Source: Lachnospiraceae bacterium (GTDB lineage Bacteria; Bacillota; Clostridia; Lachnospirales; Lachnospiraceae). From it: 64,000 nt of DNA. Shown here one piece after another: positions 38,013-64,000 of this stretch. Numbering within the stretch: the first letter of the stretch is position 1; each line of letters opens with the position of its first letter. Under the pieces are notes generated by a model. The model made no database searches. It was given only the letters and a program-made list of their open reading frames with translations, and was not told where the DNA came from. The DNA lies in NCBI GenBank assembly GCA_014804615.1, contig JAAUZL010000024.1, positions 288,809 to 352,808 of the forward strand. The letters are read 5' to 3'. The translations under genes and the position numbers were made by a program.

Positions 38013-38555
38013 ATGGACAGACGACAGCAGAAAACAAGGCAGGCTATTTTTAACGCATTCAGCAGCCTGCTTGAAAAGAAAAGTTTTGGCAACATTACGG
38101 TACAGGAAATCATAGACGAAGCAAACGTGGGAAGAAGTACTTTTTATGCCCATTTTGAAACAAAGGAAAGCCTGTTGGAAACAATGTGTAAGGATATTTT
38201 TCAGCACGTTTTTTCTGATGATTTAAGACAGGAAAACGGTCACGACTTTTCCCATGCCGGACATGATTTTGAAAAGGAAATCACACACATCTTGTACCAT
38301 TTACAGGACAACAGAAAGAACTTAAAAGGACTTCTTTCCTGTGAAAGCGGGGAAATTTTCATGGGATATTTTAAAGAGTATCTGCGGGAAATGTTTTCGG
38401 ATTCAGTGAAAAAGCTGCATTACACATCACCGCCGGAATATGTTCTGCATATGACAGTATGCAGCTTTGCGGAAACACTGCGGTGGTGGATCACGGAGCA
38501 TAATGATTATACACCAGAGCAGATTGCATCATATTTTATGGAATTTATATGCTAG
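38013..38555 (+). CDS. TetR/AcrR-family transcriptional regulator
   Basis: The 180-residue protein is the only clear plus-strand gene. The N-terminal helix-turn-helix reads RQAIFNAFSSLLEKKSFGNI followed by TVQEIIDEANVGRSTFYAHF, which fits TetR closely. The C-terminal ligand domain (about 60-180) resembles the TetR_C_7 type of Firmicutes. The ATG at 38013 has ACGGAGA upstream; an upstream in-frame ATG has weaker support. It probably represses itself and the divergent P1B ATPase through the half-sites between them. Its 3' end overlaps the convergent acyltransferase gene by 4 bases, the right edge of this accessory patch. Confidence 0.88.
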   Translation: MDRRQQKTRQAIFNAFSSLLEKKSFGNITVQEIIDEANVGRSTFYAHFETKESLLETMCKDIFQHVFSDDLRQENGHDFSHAGHDFEKEITHILYHLQDNRKNLKGLLSCESGEIFMGYFKEYLREMFSDSVKKLHYTSPPEYVLHMTVCSFAETLRWWITEHNDYTPEQIASYFMEFIC

Positions 38556-43593: not shown

Positions 43594-44664
43594 CTAGATT
43601 TCCTCATTCTGTCGATGCAGCTTAGGGTCCTCGTAGTGATCCATAAAGTCTTCCCCCAGATAGACGATCTCCTCGGCAAAACGAATCGCATGCACCACCG
43701 TAAAGACAGAGATCACCCGGCGGAAAGTAAGCCCTTCGATATAATTGAGGACCTCCATGGGAAATTTTTTATCCAATATGATATGCTCCGGAAAAATTTT
43801 TTCGTAATCCAGCACATCTCTGGGATGGGGCTTGATCAGGATCACCGACTCCGTCCCTGCTATTTTCCCATACTGTTCGATGCAGTCCCGGAAGATCTGC
43901 TCCCGCACATCCAGCTCACACAGCGGCTCCGTCAACAGCAGCACCTTATCTTTATCCGCTGCCAGGTTCCTTTTGATCTCCTCAATATTTGCAATAAACA
44001 GCCGCACCAAGAGGGCCTTGTCCTCCCCGGAAAGATTCTCAGTCAGTTCCTTCCTGGGCTTCTCAATATATTTCGGACAAGGGTATGGCAGGACGGAAAT
44101 GTCATTGACCTCCATATCCAAACAGTATTTCGCCCAGCCATTCTGAATAAAGATCAGATTTTTTGATGCCAGATACGCCTTCAGCTTAAAATGTCCCCTG
44201 TTGTCATAGCGGGCCGTATCATAGGTGCTGATACAGTCAAGCCCATCCTCCAGCGCATGGTAGGGAATCCTGCGCCAGCTTAGATAATAACCTATGGGGT
44301 CTGAATCGCAGAATACATAGACATCCCCATACTCCTTAAAATCCACCGGCACATAAGGCTGCTGCGCTTTCCCCAGCAGCTTGGTGTAACGGATGCGGGC
44401 CAGCAGATTCAGAAACAGATTGCCTCTGTCGGTGTGATACTTCATGATTTCCGGAAAAGTAACATCCTCCTTCTCCTCAAACATATACACCGCCTCAAAA
44501 AGGCCACAGTCCTCGGCGCGCTTTTGCAGATCGCCAAAGTCATTGGACATAGTACTCAGCACCAGAGTCGCATTCCCCCGCTTACTCTGCTCCAGATTCA
44601 GTTCCTTTAAACACGCCACATATACATGATAGTAGGTGTGGCAAACGTAAATTCTATCCTTCAT
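43594..44664 (-). CDS. Sialyltransferase-like glycosyltransferase (GT52/GT38 type)
   Basis: The 356-residue protein carries the two marks of several bacterial sialyltransferase families: a D/E-D/E-G motif in HALEDGLDCIST (catalytic acid) and an HP motif in ILIKPHPRDVLDY (CMP binding). The start KDRIYVCHTYYHVYVACLKE also fits GT52-type enzymes. With PseI, PseF and other Pse enzymes in the same locus, the likely donor is CMP-pseudaminic acid and not sialic acid. It acts in the cytoplasm on a lipid-linked or protein acceptor. It is 1 base from the ATP-grasp gene end, so cotranscribed with it and pseI. Confidence 0.75.
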   Translation of the reverse strand: MKDRIYVCHTYYHVYVACLKELNLEQSKRGNATLVLSTMSNDFGDLQKRAEDCGLFEAVYMFEEKEDVTFPEIMKYHTDRGNLFLNLLARIRYTKLLGKAQQPYVPVDFKEYGDVYVFCDSDPIGYYLSWRRIPYHALEDGLDCISTYDTARYDNRGHFKLKAYLASKNLIFIQNGWAKYCLDMEVNDISVLPYPCPKYIEKPRKELTENLSGEDKALLVRLFIANIEEIKRNLAADKDKVLLLTEPLCELDVREQIFRDCIEQYGKIAGTESVILIKPHPRDVLDYEKIFPEHIILDKKFPMEVLNYIEGLTFRRVISVFTVVHAIRFAEEIVYLGEDFMDHYEDPKLHRQNEEI

Positions 44665-44665
44665 C

Positions 44666-45979
44666 TTATTTTTCTTTCTCTGTCTTTTCCTCGACCAGAG
44701 TAATCTCCACCCTGATCTGCGAAAGTATTTGTTTTCCCCGCTTCATGGCTTCCTCCGCCGCCTCTCCCACCGTGATCACATGACCCAGTCTGTCGTTGCT
44801 GGAATGGGTGCCGCACACCGTATCTCCCGTTTTTTTGTAGATCACGATTTCCTCTACGCCTTCTTCCCCGTAAAGAGACTCAGGCACGGTGATCCCAGCA
44901 AGCACACCCTGCGCCTCCTCCGGTGCATGAATGAAATGAATGGCCGCGCCGCGCTGCCGCTTGGGTGTAAGATCCGGCTTTTCTCCTGTCGCCAAGAGGA
45001 CAGAAGCTCCCACCATATCGATTCCTGTAGAAAGAGGCACCAGTTTTGAAGTGATAAAATCGCCCCCCAAACGGGCAGCCAACTCCACGACCTTAGGACC
45101 CTCTTCGGTTACCTTGATCTCCACATGGGCGGGCGCATTCCCAATACCGATGGCTTTGATTGCCTGCACTGCCACTTGTCGTATCTGCTCCTGCGTTTCT
45201 CCATCCAACTGACTTGGCTCGCAGTGGGCCAGCTCTACGAAATAAGGGAGCGGCGTGATATACTTGTCCGTGATCGAGAGGATATGGGGTTCGCCCTCCA
45301 CCACAATAGCCTCCACACTCACCTCCGGACCCTGCATATATTCTTCCACCAACACAGTGCCGTTTCTGGAGTTGCTCTTGCTGTACTCATATGTCTTTTG
45401 TTTCAATTGAAGAAGCTGCTCAGCGTATGCAGAAAGTCGTCTCTTCTGCTCCTGCTTGCTCATCTTCAATGCCTCGCACTCAAGAAGCATTACGCCCCGG
45501 CTCCCCGCATTGTCCGCCGGCTTCACGATACAATGGCCATCCAGTCTGTCCACCGCATCCGAAAACGCCTCAAAATCAACCGTCACATAATAGTCAGGTA
45601 TCGGTACGCCGCATTTTTTTAAACGCTCCCGCATCTTGTCTTTAATGGTGGCGCAGAGGGAATTCTCATAGGACAGGTCCGGCCGTTTTCCCAGCTTTTC
45701 ATTGACATAGGCCGCTGTCCGCACCGGACCGTCACTGGTGGAGGTGATTACCACATCAGGCTCATAAATCAGCGCCTGCCTGTAGACCTCCTCCTGATCC
45801 AATGTGCTCACCACCAGCTTTTCATCCGCCAGGGCAAACCCCACCGCATTCTCATCATAATCCACCAGGATCACCCGATAGCCCAATTCTTTTGCCTTCT
45901 CGATGGCGGGTACCTGCAGGGCGCTGGCCCCTAGGATCATCATTTTTTTCTGTTTCTCACTCACTTCGGTTTTTTCCAT
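44666..45979 (-). CDS. ATP-grasp domain ligase
   Basis: The protein of about 437 residues has a PurK/CarB-like preATP-grasp start (KMMILGASALQVPAIEKAKE), the ATP-grasp loop HCIVKPADNAGSRGVMLL, an EEYMQGPEVSVEAIVVEGE block and the C-terminal Glu/Asn-type metal site in VVELAARLGGDFI. It joins a carboxylate to an amine or similar nucleophile using ATP. It lies between pseI and the sialyltransferase-like gene, so it may modify the nonulosonic acid, which has a carboxyl group and amino groups, for example by adding an amino acid; this is inference. The ATG at 45979 has GAGGAAGCGG; 46000 is an alternative. Confidence 0.78.
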   Translation of the reverse strand: MEKTEVSEKQKKMMILGASALQVPAIEKAKELGYRVILVDYDENAVGFALADEKLVVSTLDQEEVYRQALIYEPDVVITSTSDGPVRTAAYVNEKLGKRPDLSYENSLCATIKDKMRERLKKCGVPIPDYYVTVDFEAFSDAVDRLDGHCIVKPADNAGSRGVMLLECEALKMSKQEQKRRLSAYAEQLLQLKQKTYEYSKSNSRNGTVLVEEYMQGPEVSVEAIVVEGEPHILSITDKYITPLPYFVELAHCEPSQLDGETQEQIRQVAVQAIKAIGIGNAPAHVEIKVTEEGPKVVELAARLGGDFITSKLVPLSTGIDMVGASVLLATGEKPDLTPKRQRGAAIHFIHAPEEAQGVLAGITVPESLYGEEGVEEIVIYKKTGDTVCGTHSSNDRLGHVITVGEAAEEAMKRGKQILSQIRVEITLVEEKTEKEK

Positions 45980-46006
45980 CAAATCCGCTTCCTCAGCCAT
46001 CAGAGT

Positions 46007-47062
46007 TTATTCCACATACTTCCAGTCCATCGGCGTTCCACGGGAAATGTCGCACCGTGCCCGCTTCCCCAATATCTCCTCATAATACCTCGGCGCCATA
46101 CCGAAGGCGGGTCTGATCGACCGCATATTTTCAGCCGTGAAAACGTCTCCCTTTTTCATGTCTGCTGTCACAAACAGGGAGCGGCCCTCCTCCCGGCTTC
46201 TCTCCTGCTTCTCGGTCAGACAGTAGGTGACTTTCCCCAAAGCTTTCTCCACGATGCGGATCTCATCCACCATACGCTTAAACTCCGCAAGTTCCATGGA
46301 AAACGCCCCATCCGGGCCGCCGTCCGCCCGTGCCAGCGTAAGATGTTTCTCCACCATCACGGCGCCCAGCGCCACACCGGCCACCGCCACAGCGCTTCCC
46401 ATGCTGTGATCGGAAAGCCCCGTCAGACAGTCAAAGGTCTCCGCCATATGGGGGATCACCCTGAGATTCATATCCTCATAGGGCGTGGGATATGTGGACG
46501 TACACTTCAAAAGTATGATCTGTTCGTTTCCTTCCTCCCGGCAGGTTCTGACCGCCCTCTCAATATCCTCCAGATAAGCGATCCCCGTTGCCATGATGAC
46601 AGGCTTTCCAAGTCCCGCTATCTTACGGATCAGCGGAATATCCTGTATCTCAAAGGATGCGATCTTATAGGCGGGCATCTTCATCTTCTCCATAAAGTCC
46701 ACCGCCGTGAAATCAAAGGGCGAGGAAAAACACTCCATCCCCAGATCGTTGGCAAGCTTCATAAGATCCGGCTGCCACTCCCAGGGCGTGTACGCCTCTT
46801 TAAATAAATCATAACAGGTTCTGCCGTCCCAGATCGTTCCCTGGGTAATCTGAAAATATTCATTGTCACAGTCCATGGTAATGGTATCCGCCGTGTAGGT
46901 CTGCAGCTTCACCGCATCGGCTCCCGCCTCATGAGCTGCCCTGATGATCTCTTCGGCCCTCTTTTTATCCTGCAGATGATTGGCCGATACCTCCGCCACG
47001 ATGAAGGTCTGCTCTCCCTCTCCCACATATCGATTCCCGATTTTAATTTTCTGCTGATCCAT
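46007..47062 (-). CDS. pseI: Pseudaminic acid synthase (PseI, NeuB family)
   Basis: The 351-residue enzyme begins with FIVAEVSANHLQDKKRAEEI and continues AGADAVKLQTYTADTITMDC, typical of PseI within the NeuB family. It also has KIASFEIQDIPLIRKIA and TGLSDHSMGSAVAVAGVALG, followed by VEKHLTLAR. A C-terminal SAF antifreeze-like domain (about 285-351; GRSLFVTADMKKGDVFTAEN) closes the active site of the partner subunit. It condenses the 6-deoxy-2,4-diacetamido altrose product with phosphoenolpyruvate. The start at 47062 has AGAAAGGG upstream. Its usual partner pseF is separated from it by the 9 kb AT-rich island. Confidence 0.93.
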   Translation of the reverse strand: MDQQKIKIGNRYVGEGEQTFIVAEVSANHLQDKKRAEEIIRAAHEAGADAVKLQTYTADTITMDCDNEYFQITQGTIWDGRTCYDLFKEAYTPWEWQPDLMKLANDLGMECFSSPFDFTAVDFMEKMKMPAYKIASFEIQDIPLIRKIAGLGKPVIMATGIAYLEDIERAVRTCREEGNEQIILLKCTSTYPTPYEDMNLRVIPHMAETFDCLTGLSDHSMGSAVAVAGVALGAVMVEKHLTLARADGGPDGAFSMELAEFKRMVDEIRIVEKALGKVTYCLTEKQERSREEGRSLFVTADMKKGDVFTAENMRSIRPAFGMAPRYYEEILGKRARCDISRGTPMDWKYVE

Positions 47063-47491
47063 ACATTTCCCTTTCTGATGATTCGCCGCCTTCATACAAT
47101 ACAGGCATAAGGTCTAACCGTCTGCTCTCTCACACGTTGCTACGGAGCATTTGTCTATATCACAAGCCATGATAAAATGAGGATTTTTATTCATATTATC
47201 CTCAATATCAGCTTATTTTTCTGGTTATTAAAATTTTAGAAGCATTTTAGAAACACGATCTTGGATACTCTTGAGTAAATCTTGTTTAATTTGAAACAAA
47301 TTTATTCAAACTATTGTTTCAATACCCAATATGAATCTTGCTGATTAGTTGAGTATCAAACCAACCCTTAAACCAATTGTTAAACCAATTGTTATTTTAT
47401 TAATATTGGTTTAATCCCGAAAAAGGCTAATTACAAGCCTCTCAACATTTTTAAGATATCATTATCAAACCAATTCTTAAACCAATTTTAC
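47063..47491. other. AT-rich spacer at the left edge of the inserted island
   Basis: No gene is seen in these 429 bases. Two loose inverted repeats occur: TGAGGAT/ATCCTCA (47178-47184 and 47198-47204) and a 9-base perfect pair TTGAAACAA/TTGTTTCAA (47291-47299 and 47314-47322). A regular repeat array follows at 47358-47485. The pseI ribosome site and probably its promoter lie at the left side. Base composition changes here from the mixed glycan genes to the AT-rich island. Confidence 0.7.
47358..47485. repeat. Array of AAACCAA motifs at 12-bp spacing
   Basis: AAACCAA occurs at 47358, 47370, 47382, 47467 and 47479 (exact 12-base steps within each group), with one inverted copy TTGGTTT at 47406, which is 24 bases after 47382. 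The flanks are similar (TTAAACCAATTGT). Such phased repeats look like protein-binding iterons or a recombination site. They lie directly downstream of the AlbA_2/GHKL gene. Confidence 0.75.
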
Positions 47492-49207
47492 TTAATCATT
47501 CTGCTTGTCTTTGACTAAAACCCAATGGGAAATTTGTTTGTTATCAGAATCCGTGGTTATAATCCCCTTTCTCTTAAGCGCTGTAAGCAATGTTAAAACT
47601 TTTCGCTCCTTCTGACTGGAAGAAAGCGTATCTGGAAACTTGCCAACCAGCAAATCACGTATTGCAGCCTTATTTGCTTTTCCGAATTCTTCAAGATAAT
47701 TAACAATCATATCTTGATAGTATTTGTTGTCAAACGCCTTATTTTTTATATACTGTGCTTTATCCTCCGCCGTTTTTGCCAGAGGAGCTGCCAAATACAA
47801 GTTATTTACTCGCCCCTCCACCAACTTGTGCTTCCTTAAATGTGCTGTTGCTTCCCTAGAAATTGGTTTTCCTTTTTGCACCTGATCCAGCAAATAGACA
47901 GTCATCAAATTAAGATCCTCATTATCATGGAGCAAGTAAGTAAACTTCTCGTTTATCTCTTTCCCATAAATTGACACCTTAACTCTGTCATTTGACGTAA
48001 TGTCATAGTCTGGCAACGGAAAGAACTTCTCCCGCTGAATGTGAAATACTCGCCGGATTCCCGTTGTCTCTGTATCTATCATCTTAAACATCACCATCGC
48101 TTCTGCCAAAAGCTGATTACGATAGAACGGAGATGTATATCCGGGGTTCAAAATAGGTTCTATACTTTCTGGAATGAAGCTCCCCGGATTTGTAAGAATC
48201 AATTCATCTTCAAATTCATTGACATAGATTCGCCCACCTAAATTATAATTAGAATGAGCAATACAATTATTGAGCAATTCCCTCAATACCCATGTATCAT
48301 ATTGCTTGGTTTCCATTGGGAATAATGTCATTTGATCCGGCATATACCTATATGTGAGGTTTCGGATATTTCCCAGAATCCTGTCACTAAGTGTAATAAA
48401 AGGTATCTTGAATATCTTATAATCTTTTACCATCTCCTTTGAATCATAAATACGCCATGAAGCCTCCGGCACGCTCTCAAACAGATAATCATATGCGGAA
48501 TTCCCCAGTAGCAGCATTGCTGCATTTGTAACCTTGCCATTGACAACCAGCTTCCTTCTCTCCAGAAACTCCTCGTCCGTCATTTGATCCACTTCATCAG
48601 AAATATGCTGTTCATCCATCTTTTCCTTATACTTATTTCTTGCAATAGCAATGGCATCTGCATCCAAATGCTCAATTGTGGCATTAGGTATAAATCTCTT
48701 CGACCAATCCAACCTTACCTGCCGCCGAATGCGTTCTCGTTTTTCTTCCGATAATGGTACAAGCGATTCTCCGTCACGACCATATTCCTGATTATGCCAT
48801 CCTGTTGGAATAGCAGTTATAGCTGCTGGTATTTGAAACATTATCACTCGTTTTTCATTTCCATCTACTATCGGGAAAATCTCGTAAATATCAATAAACG
48901 AAATACCACCTGTAGTAGCAGAACCAATTTCATGTTTTAAAGTGTCCAGACCATTACTGTTTCTATACTCAGTCCCCACAATCTTTCGTTTCTTATTATT
49001 TACTCCAAATACAAGCCAGCCATATTGCAGACCACGTAAATTGGCTTCATTACTTAACGCAGAGAAATAACGTCCAATCTTGTCCCTGTCATAATCCTTT
49101 CCGGCTTCCTTGAACTCAACCACTTCATCTTCCCAATTATCAATCAAGCTATAAAGCGTGAGGATCATCTCTTCATTTTTTGATTTCTTTAATGACTTAA
49201 TATCCAT
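47492..49207 (-). CDS. AlbA_2 (Schlafen-type) plus GHKL ATPase-like regulator protein
   Basis: The 571-residue protein has an N-terminal AlbA_2 domain (about 25-120; EVVEFKEAGKDYDRDKIGRY, GWLVFGVNNKKRKIVGTEYR), a middle region, and a HATPase_c_4-type segment with RELLNNCIAHSNYNLGGRIY and ELILTNPGSFIPESI. A winged-helix-like C-terminus with RKVLTLLTALKRKGIITT follows. Proteins of this build are usually DNA- or RNA-binding regulators and often sit in mobile or defence regions. It is last in the island, 53 bases after the radical SAM gene, so it may belong to the same transcript. The ATG at 49207 has AGG nine bases upstream. Confidence 0.8.
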   Translation of the reverse strand: MDIKSLKKSKNEEMILTLYSLIDNWEDEVVEFKEAGKDYDRDKIGRYFSALSNEANLRGLQYGWLVFGVNNKKRKIVGTEYRNSNGLDTLKHEIGSATTGGISFIDIYEIFPIVDGNEKRVIMFQIPAAITAIPTGWHNQEYGRDGESLVPLSEEKRERIRRQVRLDWSKRFIPNATIEHLDADAIAIARNKYKEKMDEQHISDEVDQMTDEEFLERRKLVVNGKVTNAAMLLLGNSAYDYLFESVPEASWRIYDSKEMVKDYKIFKIPFITLSDRILGNIRNLTYRYMPDQMTLFPMETKQYDTWVLRELLNNCIAHSNYNLGGRIYVNEFEDELILTNPGSFIPESIEPILNPGYTSPFYRNQLLAEAMVMFKMIDTETTGIRRVFHIQREKFFPLPDYDITSNDRVKVSIYGKEINEKFTYLLHDNEDLNLMTVYLLDQVQKGKPISREATAHLRKHKLVEGRVNNLYLAAPLAKTAEDKAQYIKNKAFDNKYYQDMIVNYLEEFGKANKAAIRDLLVGKFPDTLSSSQKERKVLTLLTALKRKGIITTDSDNKQISHWVLVKDKQND

Positions 49208-49260
49208 AATCAAAACCTCATTTTGATCTTCCTGTCATACCTACCTAAATAGTTTCCCAA

Positions 49261-51123
49261 TTACCCCTCTTTACCCATAGCTCGTTCTGCATCCTCCCGC
49301 TTTATACGATAGTAGGATAAAACCTTTAAAATCTCTAAATCATCTGTTAGATTTTCATAATCAGAAAAATCATTTGTTTCTATAATCGGCTTAGCTATTG
49401 CCAGTTGCGCATCTGTTAAATTTTGAAAACTATTCCACCATTCATCTGTCAAACCAATGCCCTCAAAGTAAAAACGGTATATTATCATAGCCTCCGGCAT
49501 ATAAAGCAATTTCATAAACTCATCTTCATCACTTCCAAACGCTTTACAAAAAAAAGAATATCCCTTTCCCACTTTACCTTTTGTCGAATTAAGTACCGCT
49601 TGGATTGTGCGAATAAACTTTCTGTTCCATTTCTCGCCAATATAATCTCTGTTGCTAAAATAATCAGGATCTTCAATTGGATGATACTTCATTGGAAATG
49701 AGTATATACTAACATTCAATTCCTCACACAAATCCACATTTAGCTTTAACCGCCTATATAGATCCACTGGTTCATCCTTATAATTATATAAAACATAATT
49801 TGATAAACTTGTATGACCAGCCTCTACCGCAGTTCGCACAGCCTTCTTATAAATATCATGCAGTTCCCAATGGTCAAATGCAATTCGCACTGGTCTAATA
49901 GGAATTTCAAACAGTTTTCTCATATTTGTATCAATAATTAATCTAGCATCAATCCCTTGATTAAAATCAACAAAACGTCTTCTCGGTCGCTTTTTACTAT
50001 ACATTTCTTCAAAATATGGTTTAACAACTTCATATGTTTCTAAAATAGCTTCTTTTTTCGCCGTATAATCCTTTAACAAATGCTTTTTTTCCAACAAATC
50101 ATATACATCTTGCAACTTAGAACCATATTTCGAAATCAGTATCTGATACTGCCGCACTACTGTTTTTATATAAGCTTTTTCATTGTAGCCATTTTTAATA
50201 TTTTCTACTGCAACTTCAAACATATTTGGCTCTACAAAAACACTATCATTTGTAAATCCTGCTTTTTTAATCTCATCAATGATTTTGTCAAATTGACATG
50301 AAGCAAGGACATTATTATCCAATAGCAATAAATCCTTTTTCCCGCCAAATTGCTTACTTGCCCAGTCTACTTGCTCCGCAATTGGTAAATAGTTTTTATA
50401 TTCCGGTTCAAGTTTAGGAACAGCACAAAAAGCACAATGATTGACACACCCTCTGGTCATATATGCCAAATATCCATCATGAGCGGGATATACATAATCA
50501 ATTTCTTCCAAAATCGAATAATCCAACGGCAACGTATCGATTATTATATCATTATCGTCTAAAACCCCTGCATAACTTAATGTTCCAGCAAACGGCTTGA
50601 TTCCCGTAGCTTCATAAACTCTATCTTGAAGAATGGTTGCCATAACCCCGCCAACCATAACATCCTTTTGATCCTTGCACAATTTTTTTACAAAATTAAT
50701 TGTATCAATCGTAATATCCCAATAGAATGTAAATAATGTTGTAATTCCTACACGATCATAAATCCTGTTTTCAGGCAAAAAATACTCTTCATTATGAAAA
50801 TACCTTCGATAATATTTAAATAATTCCAAAATAATAATATTCTCATTCACTAAAGGAATCTCTAATAAAACAGCTTTTGTTCCTCTTTTTAAATATTGAC
50901 AAATCTGAGGTTTATATTGCTCCCAAAAAACACTATCATCATTAGAATACAATTGCTTCAATAACGCCTCATATGTATCGTTTAAAACCAATTCTTTAAG
51001 ATTACCCTTAAAAAAAGTTACATCATCTCCAAGTTCTCGATAATATGTTGCAATCTTCATAAGTCCCATTGGCGGATACTTATTTTTATAATTTGGTTCA
51101 ACAAGCAAAACCTTTCTACTCAT
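49261..51123 (-). CDS. Radical SAM protein of an uncharacterised group
   Basis: The 620-residue protein has the cluster motif RGCVNHCAFCAVP, with Cys226, Cys230 and Cys233 (C-x3-C-x2-C). The N-terminal 200 residues begin KVLLVEPNYKNKYPPMGLMK, as in B12-binding-type radical SAM proteins, though a cobalamin DxHxxG signature is not seen. Later blocks RRRFVDFNQGIDARLIIDTN and IRPVRIAFDHWELHDIYKKA fit the TIM-barrel part. The ATG directly follows the stop of the Hsp90-like gene with no gap, so the two are translationally coupled. The substrate is unknown; a radical SAM enzyme beside HerA/NurA-type genes is unusual. Confidence 0.85.
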   Translation of the reverse strand: MSRKVLLVEPNYKNKYPPMGLMKIATYYRELGDDVTFFKGNLKELVLNDTYEALLKQLYSNDDSVFWEQYKPQICQYLKRGTKAVLLEIPLVNENIIILELFKYYRRYFHNEEYFLPENRIYDRVGITTLFTFYWDITIDTINFVKKLCKDQKDVMVGGVMATILQDRVYEATGIKPFAGTLSYAGVLDDNDIIIDTLPLDYSILEEIDYVYPAHDGYLAYMTRGCVNHCAFCAVPKLEPEYKNYLPIAEQVDWASKQFGGKKDLLLLDNNVLASCQFDKIIDEIKKAGFTNDSVFVEPNMFEVAVENIKNGYNEKAYIKTVVRQYQILISKYGSKLQDVYDLLEKKHLLKDYTAKKEAILETYEVVKPYFEEMYSKKRPRRRFVDFNQGIDARLIIDTNMRKLFEIPIRPVRIAFDHWELHDIYKKAVRTAVEAGHTSLSNYVLYNYKDEPVDLYRRLKLNVDLCEELNVSIYSFPMKYHPIEDPDYFSNRDYIGEKWNRKFIRTIQAVLNSTKGKVGKGYSFFCKAFGSDEDEFMKLLYMPEAMIIYRFYFEGIGLTDEWWNSFQNLTDAQLAIAKPIIETNDFSDYENLTDDLEILKVLSYYRIKREDAERAMGKEG

Positions 51124-52692
51124 TTATTTACTCAACTCTTCCTGTATTTTCTTTATAACCATTTCTGCCATATCTTTGGGAAGTATTGATTTAATAATCG
51201 CATAAATACGAGCAATCAATTTCTGCTCTTTCTTTCCATACTTAGATAATGACTGAGTTAAATACTTATTATTTTTTTCAGGGGATTCGTTTTCTTCTTT
51301 TTTTATTTCTTCCTGTTTTTCCGTTTCATCTTTACTTTTATATGTCTTTTCTATTTCAGTAAACACTCTGGCATACACTTCATTAGAATCAGCATCTTTT
51401 TTACGATTTTCAATCTCTCGCTTTGCTTTTTCTGCTTTTTCGCGTTCTTGTTCAATCTCTTTTTTTACATTTTCTTTCTCATTGTTGTCAATAAATCCTG
51501 CATTATTTACTTTCTCTTGATATTCTTTCTCTTTTTCCGTAAAATTAGCAATCGACTTCTGTGCACTCCGAACCTTACTTGCATAATGATAAAGATCATA
51601 TAACTCTAAATAGAAGAAATTATGTACTATGTCCTCAAACTCTTTAAGCGCAGGTGTCGGATTAAAATAATCTCTCCTTGCATTCGGAATCAACCGATTA
51701 TCCAGCACAAATAATTCCCCTATAAAATAGCCGTTTCCACGTGATTCCTTAAAATATTTGGGATATCCAAGTGTATTCTCATCCCCAATTTGTATATTTT
51801 CTTTACGCAACCGAATACACCTCATGTCATTAATTACTGGAATATATTTTTCATATTTCGCAATCCCATACCACAACCATGCAACGGGAGTACCATCACT
51901 TGCCAAAAATTTTTTAAATTCTACATCATATATTTCATCATACTGCTTTTTGTTCTCAGCAGTTCCTTCACATAATCCCATTCTATATGGTTTAAATAGC
52001 TGATTTCCATTTACCAAAACTGTATATTCATCTATTTTAAAGCCTTCGTTCTTCGCAAACTCATATATTTTCTCATAAAAACTGAAATAATTAGCATATG
52101 GCACTGGCGCAACTGACTGAAGATAATTAATAACCTGTTCTGCATCAAGAAGATCATCACTTTCAAAAATAACATCTTCCATAACCACTTCAAAAAAATG
52201 GTCTTCTTTCTTGGCATCAATATACGAAACATCTGTAATCATATCTATTAATTCATCTGATGATGGATGCAACCTCGGATCTGCGACTATCTCTTTCAAA
52301 CGAACTCCATCCCATTTAATAATTGATTCTTTATCTTCTCCTTTTACAGAGGTTCTGAAAACCAAAGTATCACAGTATCCCAAACCTGCCAGTCTACCAA
52401 TTCCTCGAAAGCCTTTATCTGTATTTCTATCTTTTTCAGAATCAGCCACATCCGTCATTTTTTTCTTAAAATCTCTCATAGGAATTCCCATAGCATTATC
52501 GTGAACGGATATTTTTCTTTTATTATACTCAATAGCTATGTCTATACTAGCTTCTTCTTTATCCAACAATCCTTTTTCAATGGCTTTATCTATAGAATCG
52601 GCAGCATTTTGAACAAACTCGCGATAAACAGTAAAGCTATTTTCATACATTGCAACTGTTAAATTTTCTAAAAAATTTTTTCCTACTGCCAT
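51124..52692 (-). CDS. Hsp90-like GHKL ATPase
   Basis: The 522-residue protein has a Bergerat ATP fold at its N-terminus: the N-box YREFVQNAADSIDKA (about 23-37), the HDNAMGIP loop (about 64-71) and the glycine-rich lid GFRGIGRLAGLG (about 95-106). The overall layout is Hsp90/MutL-like with a middle domain. A long charged coiled coil (about 395-475; EQEREKAEKAKREIENRKK) precedes a short C-terminal helical domain. It has GAGGTGC before the ATG and follows the HerA gene by 15 bases. A chaperone-like or clamp role with HerA and NurA is inference. It is not the housekeeping HtpG or MutL by length and sequence. Confidence 0.85.
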   Translation of the reverse strand: MAVGKNFLENLTVAMYENSFTVYREFVQNAADSIDKAIEKGLLDKEEASIDIAIEYNKRKISVHDNAMGIPMRDFKKKMTDVADSEKDRNTDKGFRGIGRLAGLGYCDTLVFRTSVKGEDKESIIKWDGVRLKEIVADPRLHPSSDELIDMITDVSYIDAKKEDHFFEVVMEDVIFESDDLLDAEQVINYLQSVAPVPYANYFSFYEKIYEFAKNEGFKIDEYTVLVNGNQLFKPYRMGLCEGTAENKKQYDEIYDVEFKKFLASDGTPVAWLWYGIAKYEKYIPVINDMRCIRLRKENIQIGDENTLGYPKYFKESRGNGYFIGELFVLDNRLIPNARRDYFNPTPALKEFEDIVHNFFYLELYDLYHYASKVRSAQKSIANFTEKEKEYQEKVNNAGFIDNNEKENVKKEIEQEREKAEKAKREIENRKKDADSNEVYARVFTEIEKTYKSKDETEKQEEIKKEENESPEKNNKYLTQSLSKYGKKEQKLIARIYAIIKSILPKDMAEMVIKKIQEELSK

Positions 52693-52707
52693 ATAGCACC
52701 TCGTTTA

Positions 52708-54378
52708 CTATTTATATTGTTTATATATTGGTTTTGGAAATTTGATATTCAACAATGACCGAAACACGGGATTCTGAACAATGTATTCACCCTGTTTCAG
52801 TCTTGTCATCATATTTTTATACACTTGCGGAACATATTTGTAATCCGCTTTTGCAATTTCTATTGCATTAGTCCTTCCATATGCATGTGTTGAACAATTA
52901 CCCGTTACTCTGTTATGAATTGCACTCCTAAACTGCTCCGCTGAAAAAAGTATGATTCCAAGAGAACGCCCTCTTTCAGCAATATCTAATATTTGGCGTA
53001 ATATAGGCGAACTCTTTGGTGTATCTGTTGATGCATACTTATTTAACTCATCAATGAAAATAACAATCTTCTTTGGCGGATTCAGCGTATCATCATCGCT
53101 AAATTGTCCTAACTGCAAATCATAGATTGTACGAATAGCATCACCAAATACAAAGCCTTGCATATCTTCATTCAATTTAGCAATGTCAATTACATGGACT
53201 TCGTTCTTTTTAATATGTTTTAAAGCCTCCCCTATGCGCACTTCTTCTTTAGTATTATGGATATTACCAAATATTTCATTTCGGTAAATTGACTTACGAA
53301 TAATTCTATTAAACTTTCTCCAGCTTGCGACCGTTATTTCTTTATCCCCACTAGATCCTGCTTTGCAATTATTTTGTACCTCATCAAGAAAATCCTCCCA
53401 GTCTTCCAAACCGCCAAATTTCCCTTGATTTGTAATAATATAGTTAATTATAGAATCCATAGTCTGCTGCGGATCATCCATACTTGCAAACATTAAATCC
53501 AAATTGTCCTTGTCATCTTCGTATGTATATTTATAAAGATGTGCTTTCCCTAACTTCTTTTGATTGTCATATGCTTCTTTACTCAAGTATGTATTTCCAA
53601 CTTTGTTTGATGAATATGGATAATAATATTGAACATTTCTAAACGGTTCTGTACTCATTCCAAGCTTCTTATATAAATCAAATGTGTCCTTTCTTTCACT
53701 CGCTGTTTCAAAATCACCCTCCTCGTCAAGAGCTAACAAATCACTCCCTTTCACATTAAACAGCACAAAAGCGACCTCTTCATCTTCTTCATTCCCATTT
53801 ATTAAACACTTATCCTGAATAGCTTTCAACAGAAACATCGCATAAGAAGTTTTTGCAGCCAATCCTGATATCCCCGATATATTTAAATGCGCTCCCTCTG
53901 GTCCAATTAGAAATCTTGAATCCATTTGAACAGGTAATGTGATTTTATCTTCATCTCCTGTATACATTTCAAGATATCCACATGTAACAGGATTTTTGAC
54001 ATTATTCAATCCTAATGCCTCAGAAACCTCATTTTCATCAGCCAGCTCAACTTTTGAGTTGTTTGCTAGTGGTATGTATATATTTCCTGTATTTCCAATC
54101 ACTCTTGCCTTTACATAATTCATTCCTATTCGATGTGTATTCTCGTCTGCCTCAACGTTTCCAAAATCATTAGAAACATAATCTGCCAAAAAATTAGCAG
54201 TATCCGTAATATGTGATATTTCTTCAATAACTCCATATGAAACACTTTTTTGAAGATGACTCACCTTCACAACATCAAACGGATTTAAAATCAGATCCTG
54301 CCTTGTCCAAAAATAAAAATCATCAATTGTAGATGGATTTTTTTCTGTTGCGATAACCTTACCTATTACTCTACCCAT
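52708..54378 (-). CDS. HerA-like ATPase with an unusual P-loop
   Basis: The 556-residue protein has an N-terminal HAS-barrel-like region (GRVIGKVIATEKN; VVKVSHLQKSVSYGVIEEI) and an ATPase core. The Walker A is NISGISGLAAKTSYAM (about 167-181), where an Ala replaces the Gly before the Lys. The Walker B is KIVIFIDELNKYA with Asp443-Glu444, and RGRSLGIILFSAEQFRSAI gives the sensor/Arg-finger region, as in HerA-FtsK proteins. HerA forms hexamers that translocate on DNA and work with NurA nucleases in archaea. It lies between the NurA-like and Hsp90-like genes with 15-17 base gaps. The altered P-loop may be functional, as other bacterial HerA relatives also differ there. Confidence 0.82.
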   Translation of the reverse strand: MGRVIGKVIATEKNPSTIDDFYFWTRQDLILNPFDVVKVSHLQKSVSYGVIEEISHITDTANFLADYVSNDFGNVEADENTHRIGMNYVKARVIGNTGNIYIPLANNSKVELADENEVSEALGLNNVKNPVTCGYLEMYTGDEDKITLPVQMDSRFLIGPEGAHLNISGISGLAAKTSYAMFLLKAIQDKCLINGNEEDEEVAFVLFNVKGSDLLALDEEGDFETASERKDTFDLYKKLGMSTEPFRNVQYYYPYSSNKVGNTYLSKEAYDNQKKLGKAHLYKYTYEDDKDNLDLMFASMDDPQQTMDSIINYIITNQGKFGGLEDWEDFLDEVQNNCKAGSSGDKEITVASWRKFNRIIRKSIYRNEIFGNIHNTKEEVRIGEALKHIKKNEVHVIDIAKLNEDMQGFVFGDAIRTIYDLQLGQFSDDDTLNPPKKIVIFIDELNKYASTDTPKSSPILRQILDIAERGRSLGIILFSAEQFRSAIHNRVTGNCSTHAYGRTNAIEIAKADYKYVPQVYKNMMTRLKQGEYIVQNPVFRSLLNIKFPKPIYKQYK

Positions 54379-54395
54379 ATATAACAGCCTTTCTG

Positions 54396-55541
54396 TTAAA
54401 ATAAATTTAAAAACATTGTATCACTAAAATATTTACTTTTTGCATAACACTCTGTAACATATACTGGATATAAATGGTTTGCCCATCTTGAATCCGCTCC
54501 ATAACAAACCGGATTACGTTCATTAATAATATTTGCAGAAATTAAATCTACTTCTTCCGTATCCAACCCCTTATTCATTTGTTCTTCAGTAACCAAGATT
54601 TTCTCAATCTTTAAAATACCATCAAATGCATTAGCCGTATACTTTTTATCTCTAATTCGCAAATACCATACTGCATATTTCATTCCTTCAAGTCTCGGTG
54701 AAGAATACAAACTTACTGGTGTTCTATGATATAATTTCAAATCAGCTATCATATCTGAGTTGTTCTTTTTCTTTTTATCTTTACAATTCTCAGGATTAAA
54801 CGATTTTGATACGCCAACCACATAGCTAAAATTCTTTTGAAATTTGCGTTTTTCCCTCTCATTTTTTATATGGTCAACACGATATTCCAATGAACCATCT
54901 TTCATAAGATAATGTGTTGAATTAATTCTATTCTCTGAGACCAGCTTTGTTACCATGTCAATTTCACGTTGAATCATCAAATCCTGTATTACTGCAATTC
55001 CTTTGCTTTCAATTCTTTCAAATTCATCAACTTTTGTGTTGTAAGGTAAAATTTCTGTAAACTGTATATTATGATGTTTTAATCTGGAATTTTCATTTAA
55101 TTTGCTGCACAAATTTGAAAAATACACTGTTTTATTCCAATCACTTTGACTCGCTACTTTGGGTAGGGCAATTGCCAATCTTCTATCAAAATCATATTTC
55201 TGCATTTCTTTATTAACACGTTTGCAGCAACTTACTCCAACTTGTCCAGCAATTACAGGATATACCTTATTTTTATAAGCAATATCGTCTACTTTATATG
55301 TATGGCGTGAGCCATCCAAGAAATATGTAAACAATGGGTTCCCATTCCGACACTGGTCTGCCTTTCTCAACATACTAATCGCTTTATCTGGAGGAAGTGT
55401 TTCACCATATTTTTCCCATGTAATTTCCTGATGGTCATCATAGTCAAAAGAAAGTATTTCAGAACCTTCACATATATATTTATATGTTCTATAGCTCTTT
55501 CCTCCTGTTTCATGAGCAATAATATCCATTATACTATCCAA
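54396..55541 (-). CDS. NurA-like nuclease-domain protein
   Basis: The 381-residue protein shows TYFLDGSRHTYKVDDI (Asp76-Gly-Ser), the conserved first acidic motif of NurA nucleases. Later it has YRVDHIKNEREKRKFQKNF, VVGVSKSFNPENC and a C-terminal KYAVWYLRIRD ... LYPVYVTECYAKSK block that also fits the fold. NurA pairs with HerA to resect DNA ends, and here a HerA-like gene follows by 17 bases. The start at 55541 is a TTG preceded by AAGGAGAGG; an ATG at 55529 is the alternative. It is the first intact gene of the island operon and its leader overlaps the remains of an XRE regulator. Confidence 0.7.
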   Translation of the reverse strand: MDSIMDIIAHETGGKSYRTYKYICEGSEILSFDYDDHQEITWEKYGETLPPDKAISMLRKADQCRNGNPLFTYFLDGSRHTYKVDDIAYKNKVYPVIAGQVGVSCCKRVNKEMQKYDFDRRLAIALPKVASQSDWNKTVYFSNLCSKLNENSRLKHHNIQFTEILPYNTKVDEFERIESKGIAVIQDLMIQREIDMVTKLVSENRINSTHYLMKDGSLEYRVDHIKNEREKRKFQKNFSYVVGVSKSFNPENCKDKKKKNNSDMIADLKLYHRTPVSLYSSPRLEGMKYAVWYLRIRDKKYTANAFDGILKIEKILVTEEQMNKGLDTEEVDLISANIINERNPVCYGADSRWANHLYPVYVTECYAKSKYFSDTMFLNLF

Positions 55542-56180: not shown

Positions 56181-56921
56181 TTACTTGATGATAGTAGCGG
56201 CCCTGCCAGATTCAACTGTTCTACCACCCTCACACGCTTTCCGCATCATTCGGTATTTTATCTCCGCCAGTTCCCAGTCCGACGGATTGTCGATATCCTG
56301 CACCTCCGTCTCCGGCACAATGATGGGCAGATACCCGTCCGGCAGATCCCCTCTGCAGGCGCGGTAACGCGTCACGTGATAACAGTAAAACTGTCCGCTG
56401 TCGTGATACATGGGCTCCAGATCCTGAGACCGTTTCATGGCATTTTCGGGATAGCAGTACGCAAGTTTTCCCTCGCGGATTGCCATACCCCGCTGGGGCG
56501 GAAAGGAGAACCGCACCACGGGCATTACTCCTGAAGCATCCTTCTCTATCAGAAGGGACATAGCCTCCTGCAGTTTCCCCGCTGTCACAAAGGGCGCGGT
56601 GGGATAGATACAGGCCATATAGTCAAAAAGCTCACCACGTTTTTCGTAGGTTTCCAGCACTTCCATCAGCACATCGTCCGTGGTGGCAAAGTCTCCCGAC
56701 GTGGCCTCACTTCTCATAAAGGGCACCACCGCCCCTGCCTCACGCGCGATCCGCGCGATCCCCTCATCATCGGTGGACACCATGACCTCCCGGAAAATGC
56801 CCGCCTCCAGTGCCGCCTCGATGGCATAAGTAAGCATGGGCTTTCCCATAAACTCTTTCACATTCTTTCCCGGGATACGCTTACTACCGCCCCGCGCCGT
56901 AATAATCGCTATTGCATTCAT
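56181..56921 (-). CDS. pseF: Pseudaminic acid cytidylyltransferase (PseF)
   Basis: The 246-residue enzyme has the CTP-binding start AIITARGGSKRIPGKNVKEF, then MVSTDDEGIARIAREAGA, YPTAPFVTAGKLQEAM and VQDIDNPSDWELAEIKYRMM, as in PseF/NeuA-type CMP-sugar synthetases. It activates pseudaminic acid with CTP for the transferases. The start at 56921 has GGAGGGAACG. After the usual end near YRMMRK there is a tail of about 17 residues that runs straight into the TnpV remnant in the same frame, so the C-terminus may have been altered by the insertion. A sialic or legionaminic acid substrate is less likely given PseI, PseC and PseB. Confidence 0.9.
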   Translation of the reverse strand: MNAIAIITARGGSKRIPGKNVKEFMGKPMLTYAIEAALEAGIFREVMVSTDDEGIARIAREAGAVVPFMRSEATSGDFATTDDVLMEVLETYEKRGELFDYMACIYPTAPFVTAGKLQEAMSLLIEKDASGVMPVVRFSFPPQRGMAIREGKLAYCYPENAMKRSQDLEPMYHDSGQFYCYHVTRYRACRGDLPDGYLPIIVPETEVQDIDNPSDWELAEIKYRMMRKACEGGRTVESGRAATIIK

Positions 56922-56948
56922 CGTTCCCTCCAAAATTGACTGATATAG

Positions 56949-59093
56949 TCAATCTTTCATACACATATAAATTTCATCCGCGATCCGCTCTGCACCTCGT
57001 CCATCCGTGACCTCGGAAAGTTTTTCCTTCATGCACTCCCGCAGCGATACATCCGTGATCATTTTCCTGATCCCGTCACACACCGCTTCGACGCACGCCT
57101 CCCTGTCCTGCCGGATATCACCCGCATAGAGCATACGCCCCTGCTCTGCGAAGAAATCTTTGTCGTACCGCTGGTTATCCGCCGTCACAAAGAATACCGT
57201 GGGCACCTGCATGGCGCTCAGCTCAAACAACATCGTTCCCGCTGCGGATACCGCTCCGTCGCACTCTGCCATCAAACCCGCCATATCCCGGCAGGGCCGA
57301 TAAAGCTTTACATTCGGATGCTCCTCTGCAAAGGAGACAAGCTCCCGCTCTCTGGGGTGCCTGCCGCCGACTACCGTGTGGAAAACAACCTTTTCCAGTC
57401 CCTCTGTCTCCACGGCTCTCTGTAAAATCCCCAGAAGCGCATCCTGAGCATCACCGCCGCCACTGGAAAGAAGCACAGAAAATGTTCCATCCTCTGGTCG
57501 AGAGGCTGAACGCGTTTCTCTTCCAAACTCCTCCCGCAAAGGCACATAGTCCGGCCCCAGAAGAAGCTTTGTTTTATCGCCGTAGGTCTCCTTATAGGGG
57601 AACCGCGCATGATATGCATTGTAATTGATCAAAACATCCACCGGGCAGACCACATCAAAACAATCGTCGATCCATATAAGCTTTGCCACATCCCGCAGTT
57701 CCTCGAAATAGGCGGGCGTCACCTGATAGGAATCCACCAGAAGCGTCTGAATCCCTGCCAAAGACAGCATTCTCTTCAATCTGGGAATCTCTTTCTCCAT
57801 CTGGTTCCACTGCGTATGCAGACAAACCTGCTCCATTCCTGCCTCGGACAGCATCTTCTGTGCCCCTTCGTCCGCCGTAAAAAACAAGACCCGGCATCCC
57901 TTCTTTCGCAGCTGCCTGGCGATGGTGATACAGCGCATGATATGCCCTGTGGCAACTGTGTCATTCGCATCCGCTCGTATTCCGATCACAGTCTGCTCTT
58001 CATATGCAGAAAGCACCTGTGCGATCCGTTCCATCTCCCGGATGCCATATCGCTGGTCAATGGGCAGCGCCAGCAAATGCTCGTAGATATAGTCCTCATC
58101 CCCCTCAAAAAAATCAGGAGCATCCTCACTAAAAGGCCAGAGCACCGGAGCGTAAATATCATGTTCCGTCAAAAATCTCTGCAGATCCTCCCGCTCCTTC
58201 GCGTAGATGGGCAGATAGAGCGGCGCCTCCACTCCCTGCATGACCAGAACCGGCCGCAGTCTTTTCATGCCTATCATCTTTTCATATAAAAAGCTCTGAT
58301 TCTCCGCTCTTTTATGTCTGGCCGCCTCCTCATCCGTCTCAGACAGGATTGCCGCAGACACGCCGGACATTCGGCGCACCCCTTCATACCGATCCAGCGC
58401 CTCCTCCAGAGAGCGGTTCTTACGCAAAAAAAGCTCCTTTTTCTCTGGCAGAACTTCCGCACCCTGTAAATATTCCCATTTTTGAACCAGGGGTTCCAGC
58501 CTCTCCTCTGCGTAAGCTTCCCCGTCCTGCAGAACATCCTCTGCCAACGGCAAATCAGAGACCACAAATCCGCCATCGGGAACCGGATACCATTTACGCA
58601 GACTTCCCACTACAAAATCCGCTTCCTGCCCCGCCGCTTCCAGATAGTAGGACTGGGTCACATCCTCCATCACCAAAATACCGCTCTTTCTGAACACCGG
58701 AAGCTGCGCCCGCAGATCGCTGAAAGTGTCTTCTCCGTAGTAAGGGTGAACAAAAACAAGTCCCGGATTCGTTTCCAGAATCATCTGAAAAAGTGTTTCT
58801 CCGGTCGATTCGAGTCCACTGTCCACCGCATAGAAGATAAGCTCCCATCCTCTGTGACGAAAAGGTGCAAACACTGAATCGCACATATAAGCCGGCATCA
58901 GACACCGCTTCGGGACATCCGGTCTCTCCCGTTCCAGACTGATCAGGGCAAGCTCAATAGCCTCTCTGCCGGAAGCCGTATAAGATTTATGCTTTTTCCC
59001 ATACTTCTCCACATGATTCAGGCACAATGTTTCTGCTTCCACACGCTTCCCGGTCACAGCGGGAGCCACTTCATAGATACTTCCGATCTCCAT
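56949..59093 (-). CDS. Fusion: DegT-like aminotransferase domain plus PseG UDP-sugar hydrolase domain
   Basis: The 714-residue protein joins two units. Residues 1 to about 360 form a PLP aminotransferase-like domain: SYTASGREAIELALISL (phosphate cup), LVMEDVTQSYYLEAAGQEAD and VVGSLRKWYPVPDGG, where Lys167 is the expected Schiff-base residue. From about residue 370 a GT-B-type PseG unit begins: IGIRADANDTVATGHIMRC, LLVDSYQVTPAYFEELRD and VLLSSGGGDAQDA. PseG removes UDP from the diacetamido altrose before PseI acts. A separate PseC aminotransferase exists in the locus, so the N-terminal unit is probably for another sugar or a further modification. The start at 59093 lies 2 bases after the GT2 stop and has a GGGAAG site. 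Confidence 0.85.
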   Translation of the reverse strand: MEIGSIYEVAPAVTGKRVEAETLCLNHVEKYGKKHKSYTASGREAIELALISLERERPDVPKRCLMPAYMCDSVFAPFRHRGWELIFYAVDSGLESTGETLFQMILETNPGLVFVHPYYGEDTFSDLRAQLPVFRKSGILVMEDVTQSYYLEAAGQEADFVVGSLRKWYPVPDGGFVVSDLPLAEDVLQDGEAYAEERLEPLVQKWEYLQGAEVLPEKKELFLRKNRSLEEALDRYEGVRRMSGVSAAILSETDEEAARHKRAENQSFLYEKMIGMKRLRPVLVMQGVEAPLYLPIYAKEREDLQRFLTEHDIYAPVLWPFSEDAPDFFEGDEDYIYEHLLALPIDQRYGIREMERIAQVLSAYEEQTVIGIRADANDTVATGHIMRCITIARQLRKKGCRVLFFTADEGAQKMLSEAGMEQVCLHTQWNQMEKEIPRLKRMLSLAGIQTLLVDSYQVTPAYFEELRDVAKLIWIDDCFDVVCPVDVLINYNAYHARFPYKETYGDKTKLLLGPDYVPLREEFGRETRSASRPEDGTFSVLLSSGGGDAQDALLGILQRAVETEGLEKVVFHTVVGGRHPRERELVSFAEEHPNVKLYRPCRDMAGLMAECDGAVSAAGTMLFELSAMQVPTVFFVTADNQRYDKDFFAEQGRMLYAGDIRQDREACVEAVCDGIRKMITDVSLRECMKEKLSEVTDGRGAERIADEIYMCMKD

Positions 59094-62440: not shown

Positions 62441-63634
62441 CTACATCCGATAGTAGGTTACGATCTTTTTTACTGCCTCGATCACGCTCTCCACATCCTC
62501 ATCGCTCATCGCATAATAGAGCGGCAGAGAAATGATCTCCTCATAAAGTTTCTCCGCATTAGGGCACAGTCCCCGCCGATATCCCAGCTTTTCATAGTAA
62601 GGAAAATAGTAGGTCGGTATATAATGTACGTTGCAGCACACCTTCTCCGCCTTCAGTGCCTCAAAAAACTGTTTTCTGTCGATCCGCAGTTTTTCCGGAA
62701 CGATCCGCAGGATATACAGATGCCTTGTCGTATCCGACTCCGGAATCTCCCGCTGCACAAACAGCTCCGGCAATTCGGAAAACGCCTCGTCATATCTCTT
62801 TACGATCTCTTTTCTGCGGCTGCTGAACATGGGCAGCTTATCCAGCTGGCTGATGATCAACGCCGCCTGCATATCCGTGATGCGGTAATTATAGCCCAGC
62901 GCGATCTGTTCGTAATACCAGGGGCCGTCCGATTCGTTCTCCATCTGCGACTCATCTTTTGTAATACCATGAGCGCGGTACAATACCAGCTTTTTATATA
63001 GCGCCTCATCGTTTGTCAAAACAGCGCCGCCCTCACCGCCTGTCACGGTCTTGACAGGGTGAAAACTAAATGTAGTCATATCCGCAATAGAACCGTTGGT
63101 CCGTCCTTTGTATTTTGTGCCGATCACATGAGCGCCATCCTCGATCAGCGTAAGTCCATGCTTTTTACATATTGCCAGAAGAGGATCCAGATCTACCGAT
63201 TGTCCTGTAAAGTCCACCGCCACCACTGCCTTTGTCCGGGGCGTGATTGCTTCCTCCACCTTCCCTGGATCGATATTGTAGGTCTCCGGATCAATGTCCG
63301 CAAAAACGGGCCTTGCCCCACAGTAAAGCGCACAGTTTGCCGATGCCGCAAAAGTGATAGGAGTCGTGATCACCTCATCTCCCTCACCCACGCCTGCTGC
63401 AAGAGCCGCCATGTGCAGCGCCGCTGTGCCGTTTGCGCAGACCACAGCGTATTTTGCTCCCGTCAGCGCACACAGTTTCTGCTCCAGCTCCCCGATCTTC
63501 GGCCCACAAGTCAGAAAGTCGCTTCGAAGCACCTCCGTCACCGCCTGAATGTCCGCCTCGTCTATATATTGATGCCCGTAAAATATGGGGGTCTCCCTCA
63601 CCGGCTTTCCGCCTTCTATTGCTGGTTTTTCCAT
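62441..63634 (-). CDS. pseC: UDP-4-amino-4,6-dideoxy-L-AltNAc transaminase (PseC)
   Basis: The 397-residue DegT-family enzyme shows YGHQYIDEADIQAVTEVLRS and DFLTCGPKIGELE, ANGTAALHMAALAAGVGEGD, IEDGAHVIGTKYKGRTNGSI and FSFHPVKTVTGGEGGAVLTN, with the Schiff-base Lys in HPVKT. The blocks, including F-H-P-V-K-T-V-T-G-G-E-G-G, are typical of PseC. It aminates the C4 keto group made by PseB. The start at 63634 has a strong GGGAGGAATT. It lies 63 bases after pseB, in the normal pathway order. Confidence 0.92.
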   Translation of the reverse strand: MEKPAIEGGKPVRETPIFYGHQYIDEADIQAVTEVLRSDFLTCGPKIGELEQKLCALTGAKYAVVCANGTAALHMAALAAGVGEGDEVITTPITFAASANCALYCGARPVFADIDPETYNIDPGKVEEAITPRTKAVVAVDFTGQSVDLDPLLAICKKHGLTLIEDGAHVIGTKYKGRTNGSIADMTTFSFHPVKTVTGGEGGAVLTNDEALYKKLVLYRAHGITKDESQMENESDGPWYYEQIALGYNYRITDMQAALIISQLDKLPMFSSRRKEIVKRYDEAFSELPELFVQREIPESDTTRHLYILRIVPEKLRIDRKQFFEALKAEKVCCNVHYIPTYYFPYYEKLGYRRGLCPNAEKLYEEIISLPLYYAMSDEDVESVIEAVKKIVTYYRM

Positions 63635-63697
63635 AATTCCTCCCGTACCAGAGAGAGGACACGCATTTCCACACATGTCCTCCTTGTATTCATTCTT

Positions 63698-64000
63698 CTA
63701 TTTTTCCAGTTCTACTTCTTTTAAAAGCGCTCTGATATCCTCCACACTAAGCCACTCTGTATTGTTGTCAGAGCTGTAAGAAAAGCCTTCCGCTACCTTA
63801 GTACCGGAGAGATCCGGCTGTTGTCTGTTATTCCAGGTCATCTGCGGATAGACGATAAAATGCTTGTCATATTCATAGGTGGTCGCAGAGTCCTCTGTGG
63901 TCACCATGATCTCATGCAGCTTCTCTCCCGGCCGGATTCCCGTCTCTTTTATTTTACATCCCGGCAGCATGGCTTCCGCCAGATCCGTAATCTTAAAAGA
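63698..64000 (-). CDS. pseB: UDP-GlcNAc 4,6-dehydratase (inverting), C-terminal part (PseB)
   Basis: Only the last 100 or so residues are in the window; the frame stays open to the end (FKITDLAEAMLPGCKIKETG). IRPGEKLHEIM and the acidic D-S-x-T-T-Y-E-Y-D-K-H-F block fit PseB/FlaA1-type dehydratases. It makes the first intermediate of the pseudaminic acid pathway by 4,6-dehydration with C5 inversion. The ORF-track start at 63970 is an internal Met, not the true start. Confidence 0.88.
   Translation of the reverse strand, partial: SFKITDLAEAMLPGCKIKETGIRPGEKLHEIMVTTEDSATTYEYDKHFIVYPQMTWNNRQQPDLSGTKVAEGFSYSSDNNTEWLSVEDIRALLKEVELEK

Follow-up and report, generated by a model that had tools for sequence, protein, structure and literature searches.

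A PseG fusion protein of Lachnospiraceae with a divergent DegT-fold domain, a candidate component of an N-acylation module in pseudaminic acid biosynthesis

Background

Among the closest described counterparts of the protein analysed here is the hydrolase PseG (TIGR03590; Campylobacter PseG, PDB 3hbm/3hbn). The C-terminal half of the present protein likewise exceeds the equivalog cut-off of that model and aligns across the catalytic region, whereas its N terminus bears an extra domain of 367 amino acids with a DegT fold, called ND below. The same fold, over 310–317 residues and with Z values of about 29, is found in the DegT/DnrJ/EryC1/StrS sugar aminotransferases (PseC 2fnu, ArnB, WlaRG and HCAN_0200), from which ND differs in its low identity (14–18%) and in a signature of its own (R..N, W319 and DQRY). 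Literature searches on PseG fusions and on ATP-grasp enzymes with pseudaminic acid (Pse) returned no description of this fusion.

The 4-amine that stands between PseC and PseG is the substrate of the N-acetyltransferases PseH and LegH, and the same step is proposed here for ND and its partner. PseH and LegH are GNAT enzymes that use acetyl-CoA; here, an ATP-grasp ligase and a PLP-type domain are found instead. In butirosin biosynthesis, BtrJ and BtrK form an ATP-grasp and PLP-enzyme pair that builds an amino acid side chain. In pairs of this type the ATP-grasp enzyme makes the bond and the PLP enzyme remodels the amino acid, and a like division of labour is proposed for the ligase and ND. Unlike BtrJ/BtrK and FslC, an N-citrylornithine decarboxylase, ND is of fold type I (DegT) and not a fold type III decarboxylase, and its acceptor would be a UDP-sugar; FslC is matched by an alternative, decarboxylase-type module described below and not by ND. 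Nonulosonic acids with amino acid groups are represented by Leg5Ac7AcAla of Vibrio vulnificus and Aliivibrio wodanis, a legionaminic acid with an N-acetyl-alanyl group, for which the related A. wodanis-type cluster is described as containing a "second aminotransferase" (PMC7371886), and by Leg5GluNMe7Ac (PMC13317340). The amino acid acyl group of Leg5Ac7AcAla resembles that of the product proposed here, but belongs to the legionaminic series.

The fusion protein and its two domains

The fusion and the gene directly upstream of it were read in the window, by which we mean the whole stretch of 64,000 nucleotides analysed:

56949–59093, minus strand: ND–PseG fusion, 714 amino acids, ATG at 59093
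57993–59093, minus strand: ND, the N-terminal domain of the fusion (amino acids 1–367), a divergent DegT-fold PLP-type domain
56949–57992, minus strand: PseG half of the fusion (amino acids 368–714, 347 residues), TIGR03590
59096–60133, minus strand: family 2 glycosyltransferase (GT2), directly upstream of the fusion; its segregation with the ND module is not clean

Open reading frame analysis gave one continuous frame of 714 codons without any internal stop. An alternative GTG at 59144, 5′ of the ATG, would run into the preceding GT2 gene, and the ATG was taken as the start because homologues of the fusion begin with the same N-terminal MEIGS. In a profile search with TIGR03590, the C-terminal half scored 189.3 bits and the whole protein 186.7 bits, above the cut-off of 153.55, and the TGHIMRC of this half aligned with FGHIKRD of PDB 3hbm (GH..R, the catalytic His region). 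The C-terminal half is predicted to be a PseG hydrolase.

The N-terminal half alone scored 18.5 bits on PF01041, under the Pfam gathering cut-off of 19.8, and a PDB sequence search with it gave matches at chance level only. Because the PF01041 cut-off was not reached, the label "DegT-like" is based on comparisons of fold and of profiles. An AlphaFold model of ND (pLDDT 93.4, pTM 0.92) had as its best structural matches DegT-fold enzymes, nearly all of them sugar aminotransferases, including 7n63 (Z = 29.1) and the external-aldimine structure of PseC, 2fnu (Z = 29.0, 317 residues aligned at 14% identity), with alignments of 312–317 residues. Profile comparison with the DegT enzymes of the same loci gave a probability of 99.5 and an E value of 4e-22. 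The first-pass annotation had read the frame as a DegT-like domain fused to PseG, and the 714-amino acid frame, the fold and the TIGR03590 score bear this out.

The PLP-site lysine that the same annotation proposed corresponds to K167 in SLRKWYPVPDGG (amino acids 164–175), accompanied by D144 in MEDVTQS. In the profile alignment both fall in the columns of the catalytic Lys and the Asp of PseC-type enzymes, and Ser164 and Gln147 of the PLP site are likewise in register with DegT sugar aminotransferases. Loss of PLP-binding residues in homologues was looked for and did not occur: K167 and D144 were invariant in 51 homologues, down to 22% identity and including homologues not fused to PseG. Judged by its Lys, Asp, Ser and Gln, ND is predicted to be PLP-competent. 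Other conserved residues were R43, R262, N265, W319 and DQRY (346–349). The phosphate-binding motifs are altered, and since SGR replaces SGT and no equivalent of GYNYR is present, ND constitutes a separate, divergent family. It had also been noted that the N-terminal unit is unlike the separate PseC of the locus, and this proved correct; ND as a duplicate PseC could be ruled out, as the PseC gene scores 480.8 bits on TIGR03588 and the N-terminal half has no match to that model. Measured against the nearest relative, dN/dS was 0.099 for the N-terminal half and 0.121 for the PseG half. The N-terminal half is under purifying selection, with a constraint like that on PseG, and annotation of the gene as PseG conceals a probable second enzyme.

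Genes around the fusion

Further genes of the pathway lie on the same strand:

43594–44664, minus strand: GT52/polysialyltransferase-type glycosyltransferase, candidate nonulosonic acid transferase, found both in loci that have the ND module and in loci that lack it
44666–46000, minus strand: ATP-grasp ligase with an L-amino-acid-ligase C-terminal domain (PF13535 and PF18603 LAL_C2)
46007–47095, minus strand: PseI, pseudaminic acid synthase, whose tree divides cleanly into loci with and loci without the ND module
56181–56933, minus strand: PseF, pseudaminic acid cytidylyltransferase (TIGR03584, 265.2 bits, cut-off 205.7)
62441–63676, minus strand: PseC, UDP-4-amino-4,6-dideoxy-N-acetyl-beta-L-altrosamine transaminase (TIGR03588, cut-off 423.5)
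63698–63970, minus strand: PseB, 3′ part; the gene runs past the window, and the whole open reading frame is present in locus L186 of the same genome

The ATP-grasp protein, with an LAL_C2 match of 65.6 bits, is proposed as the functional partner of ND.

Several other genes were observed in this region, with names assigned partly by eye. Between PseF and PseI lies a block of about 8 kb (window positions 47492–55541) that holds a 573-amino acid gene with weak hits, a cobalamin-binding radical SAM-like gene, an HSP90-like ATPase, a HerA-like ATPase with weak mad8/HerA matches and a NurA-like gene. The block looks inserted, because PseF and PseI adjoin in L035 and others, and it is perhaps a defence-type island. 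Within the polysaccharide locus, PADLOC matched a PDC-S02 family nuclease-like gene at 33033–34136 (510.8 bits). The polysaccharide region also holds a gene read by eye as a heavy-metal P-type ATPase (36094–37959), with a divergent TetR-like regulator at 37968–38555. An MtnA-like gene (methylthioribose-1-phosphate isomerase, by eye) lies beside PseB in the same genome (L186:8530–9591) and in about 19 other loci.

Distribution of the fusion

Among 145 related genomes searched, fusion frames with 46–91% identity were found in more than 20 congeneric species and in one further genus, and near-full-length frames in more than 20 congeners. The same domain pair is present in dozens of Lachnospiraceae genomes, among them the named isolates Kineothrix alysoides KNHs209 and Lachnospiraceae bacterium 28-4, so that a restriction to this strain, which was also looked for, did not occur. 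Scanning of GTDB contigs yielded 79 loci with ND; of these and the earlier loci, 50 were fused and nine had the two parts as separate genes. One split version (L103) reads ND, a stop, 29 bases and then PseG, and in another locus (L129) the parts are on opposite strands. In a quick ND tree that took in 43 fused rows (that of the window and 42 from public contigs), the split versions nest inside the fused clade. A single frame of 716 amino acids with the reversed order PseG–ND (L108; PseG part 154.2 bits, just over the cut-off) branches outside the main clade of the quick tree, and its order and position suggest a second, separate fusion.

The fusion is old and widespread. The loci were read by simple ORF calls and many of the genomes are metagenome assemblies; an assembly or frameshift artefact was ruled out by the many near-full-length frames, the natural split versions and the dN/dS of about 0.1. 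One fusion (G021/L022/L063) does look frame-shifted.

Acylation genes in the genus

One acetyltransferase gene of the window bears on the step catalysed by PseH:

27527–28072, minus strand: GNAT acetyltransferase, PseH match of 77.5 bits, below the cut-off of 93.1

No PseH above this cut-off was found in the window's own genome or in 77 congeners, and sub-threshold GNATs of up to 81 bits were present in most. The GNAT of the window adjoins WecE (607.8 bits), and inspection of 16 congener loci, with or without ND, showed it in most cases within a cassette of WecE, a membrane gene, GNAT and GT2. This neighbour favours a role as dTDP-Fuc4N acetyltransferase over one as PseH; judged by its profile match, it could act as a true PseH.

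ND was present in 35 of the 77 congeners and a close orthologue of the ATP-grasp ligase also in 35, with both in 33 (Fisher, 5e-17, related genomes counted as independent); the mismatches were incomplete genomes or contig edges. A fold type III PLP decarboxylase-type gene, for which the nearest curated models are LysA and FslC, was likewise present in 35 of 77 and overlapped with ND in only two (2 with both genes, 33 with ND, 33 with the decarboxylase type and 9 with neither; Fisher, 3e-11, related genomes counted as independent). In most loci read it is accompanied by a PylC-like ATP-grasp. The decarboxylase-like gene followed by the PylC-like gene can be seen at L048:1551–3804 and L185:4749–6944, and in Pse loci from roughly half of the genus; one genome (G064) has both this module and the ND module. 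GNATs of the type found at 27527–28072 occur in genomes with either module.

Nine genomes lack both ND and the decarboxylase gene. Two of them have the ligase, at a contig edge or in an incomplete assembly. A visible acyl enzyme was present in only some of the other seven, with none clear nearby in L178 and L181. PseI is fused in one such genome to a GNAT domain (L176:6359–7855) and in two others to a domain whose nearest matches are sugar N-formyltransferases (L177:8993–10618 and L179:8936–10588). On account of these PseI fusions and of the ND/ligase and decarboxylase/PylC-like pairs, several acyl-forming modules appear to fill the place expected for PseH.

ND outside PseG loci

In 25 loci ND occurs without PseG. 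Its immediate neighbour is an ATP-grasp gene in 10 of them, mainly from Bacteroidales, and a gene of the FemAB type in seven, one of which is a NeuC/NeuB locus; these seven come from Planococcus, Cytobacillus, Mobilitalea and others. WbqC stands beside it in further loci, and a canonical DegT aminotransferase is encoded in 20 of the 25 as well. Relatives of ND without a visible ligase were found in a few loci (L037, L045, L121 and L131). A plasmid search gave distant relatives, including a WbqC–ND pair in Proteus mirabilis and a GNAT–ND–FemAB locus in Priestia, none with a known product. What the ND loci share would be a 4-amino sugar together with an amide-forming enzyme. A shorter ND subfamily of about 320 amino acids was repeatedly paired with WbqC, as in a Proteus mirabilis polysaccharide locus (L172:11281–12963) and in L040 and L044.

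Co-segregation of pathway genes with ND

Segregation was followed on quick trees of 40 congener loci. The ND label changed once on the PseI tree (support 100) and twice each on those of PseG and PseF; it changed six times on the PseC tree, five times on that of the upstream membrane gene, four times on that of GT2 and six times on that of GT52. In a close pair of genomes, one with ND (G047) and one of the decarboxylase type (G049), PseC was 97% identical, GT2 94% and PseF 92%, with PseI at 68%. PseG, PseF and PseI thus go with the ND module, unlike PseC and both flanks. As PseC acts before acylation, the exchanged block comprises those enzymes that would encounter the sugar in its acylated form. 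Linkage alone could contribute to this pattern, the block being contiguous, and the trees are no proof of function, because genes of one operon co-segregate by linkage and the last-acting enzyme, PseF, does so too.

Discussion

The fusion is predicted from its sequence to be a two-domain enzyme of a Pse-type pathway. An N-acylation step is favoured for ND because it pairs with an ATP-grasp of the amino-acid-ligase type, no PseH reaches its cut-off, and the module segregates with PseG and PseI and not with PseC. We infer, with good support, that the module stands at the PseH step, after PseC and before PseG. That ND acts in N-acylation is probable, and the chances are about even that it does so together with the ligase, whatever its exact PLP chemistry. 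Action of ND on the attached acyl group is a narrower proposal, plausible at somewhat less than even chances.

In the proposed pathway, PseC would make the 4-amine of UDP-4-amino-4,6-dideoxy-L-AltNAc (the future C7 position of Pse), to which the ATP-grasp enzyme would attach an amino acid in amide linkage. ND might then act by PLP chemistry on the attached amino acid group, most likely by transamination and possibly by racemization; alternatively, within the same step, it might supply the amino acid. The product would pass to the fused PseG domain, which would remove UDP after acylation, and then to PseI and PseF, giving CMP-Pse with an amino acid-derived 7-N-acyl group. A modified nonulosonic acid, the outcome that the first-pass annotation had anticipated, is accordingly retained as probable.

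That annotation had reached this outcome by a second amino group on the sugar. ND would then be a second sugar aminotransferase acting on the Pse precursor, with the ATP-grasp acylating the new amine, and its closest structures, which are sugar aminotransferases including PseC, as well as its intact PLP-site lysine, are in keeping with such a role. However, PseC is already present, no oxidoreductase that would make a second ketone is conserved among the frequent neighbours of ND, a canonical DegT aminotransferase is found in 64 of the 79 ND loci, and the G-Y-N-Y-R and SG-T phosphate motifs are altered. The proposed second amination was not upheld, and we consider this reading unlikely.

It is also rather unlikely that ND merely prepares a free amino acid for the ATP-grasp, as a transaminase, racemase or similar enzyme, with the fusion to PseG serving co-expression and not channelling. 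The partners of ND are of the amino-acid-ligase or FemAB type and need amino acids or aminoacyl-tRNA, and a carboxylate could be bound by R348 of DQRY, a conserved residue close to the domain's end. Against this role, FemAB-type enzymes generally use aminoacyl-tRNA and so need no dedicated amino acid supplier, and the existence of two separate PseG fusions points to a sugar nucleotide or an acyl-sugar as the substrate. Least probable, and in our judgement quite improbable, is a non-catalytic scaffold or regulator of PseG beside ordinary PseH activity from the GNAT at 27527–28072: the PF01041 score below cut-off and the 77-bit PseH match of a GNAT found in most genomes of the genus would fit, but the PLP-site Lys and Asp are invariant even in distant homologues not fused to PseG, the N-terminal half is under purifying selection, and the GNAT adjoins WecE and is shared by genomes of both module types.

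Returning to N-acylation, ND might, as a tentative and broader proposal, represent a new family of PLP enzymes that act on an amino acid amide-bonded to a UDP-4-amino sugar and not on a keto-sugar. It would do so within interchangeable N-acylation cassettes (acetyl, formyl, ligase with decarboxylase, ligase with ND) that diversify Pse in gut Lachnospiraceae and, elsewhere, bacillosamine- or legionaminic-type sugars. Because the set of ND–PseG and amino acid ligase appears to take the place of the usual acetylation, this gut bacterium probably carries an uncommon sugar on its surface. If the N-acylation reading is right, the nonulosonic acid pathway would have a modular acylation step, an unnamed PLP-fold family would be one acylation tool across Bacillota and Bacteroidota, and surface sugars with amino acid-derived groups would be predicted in common gut bacteria.
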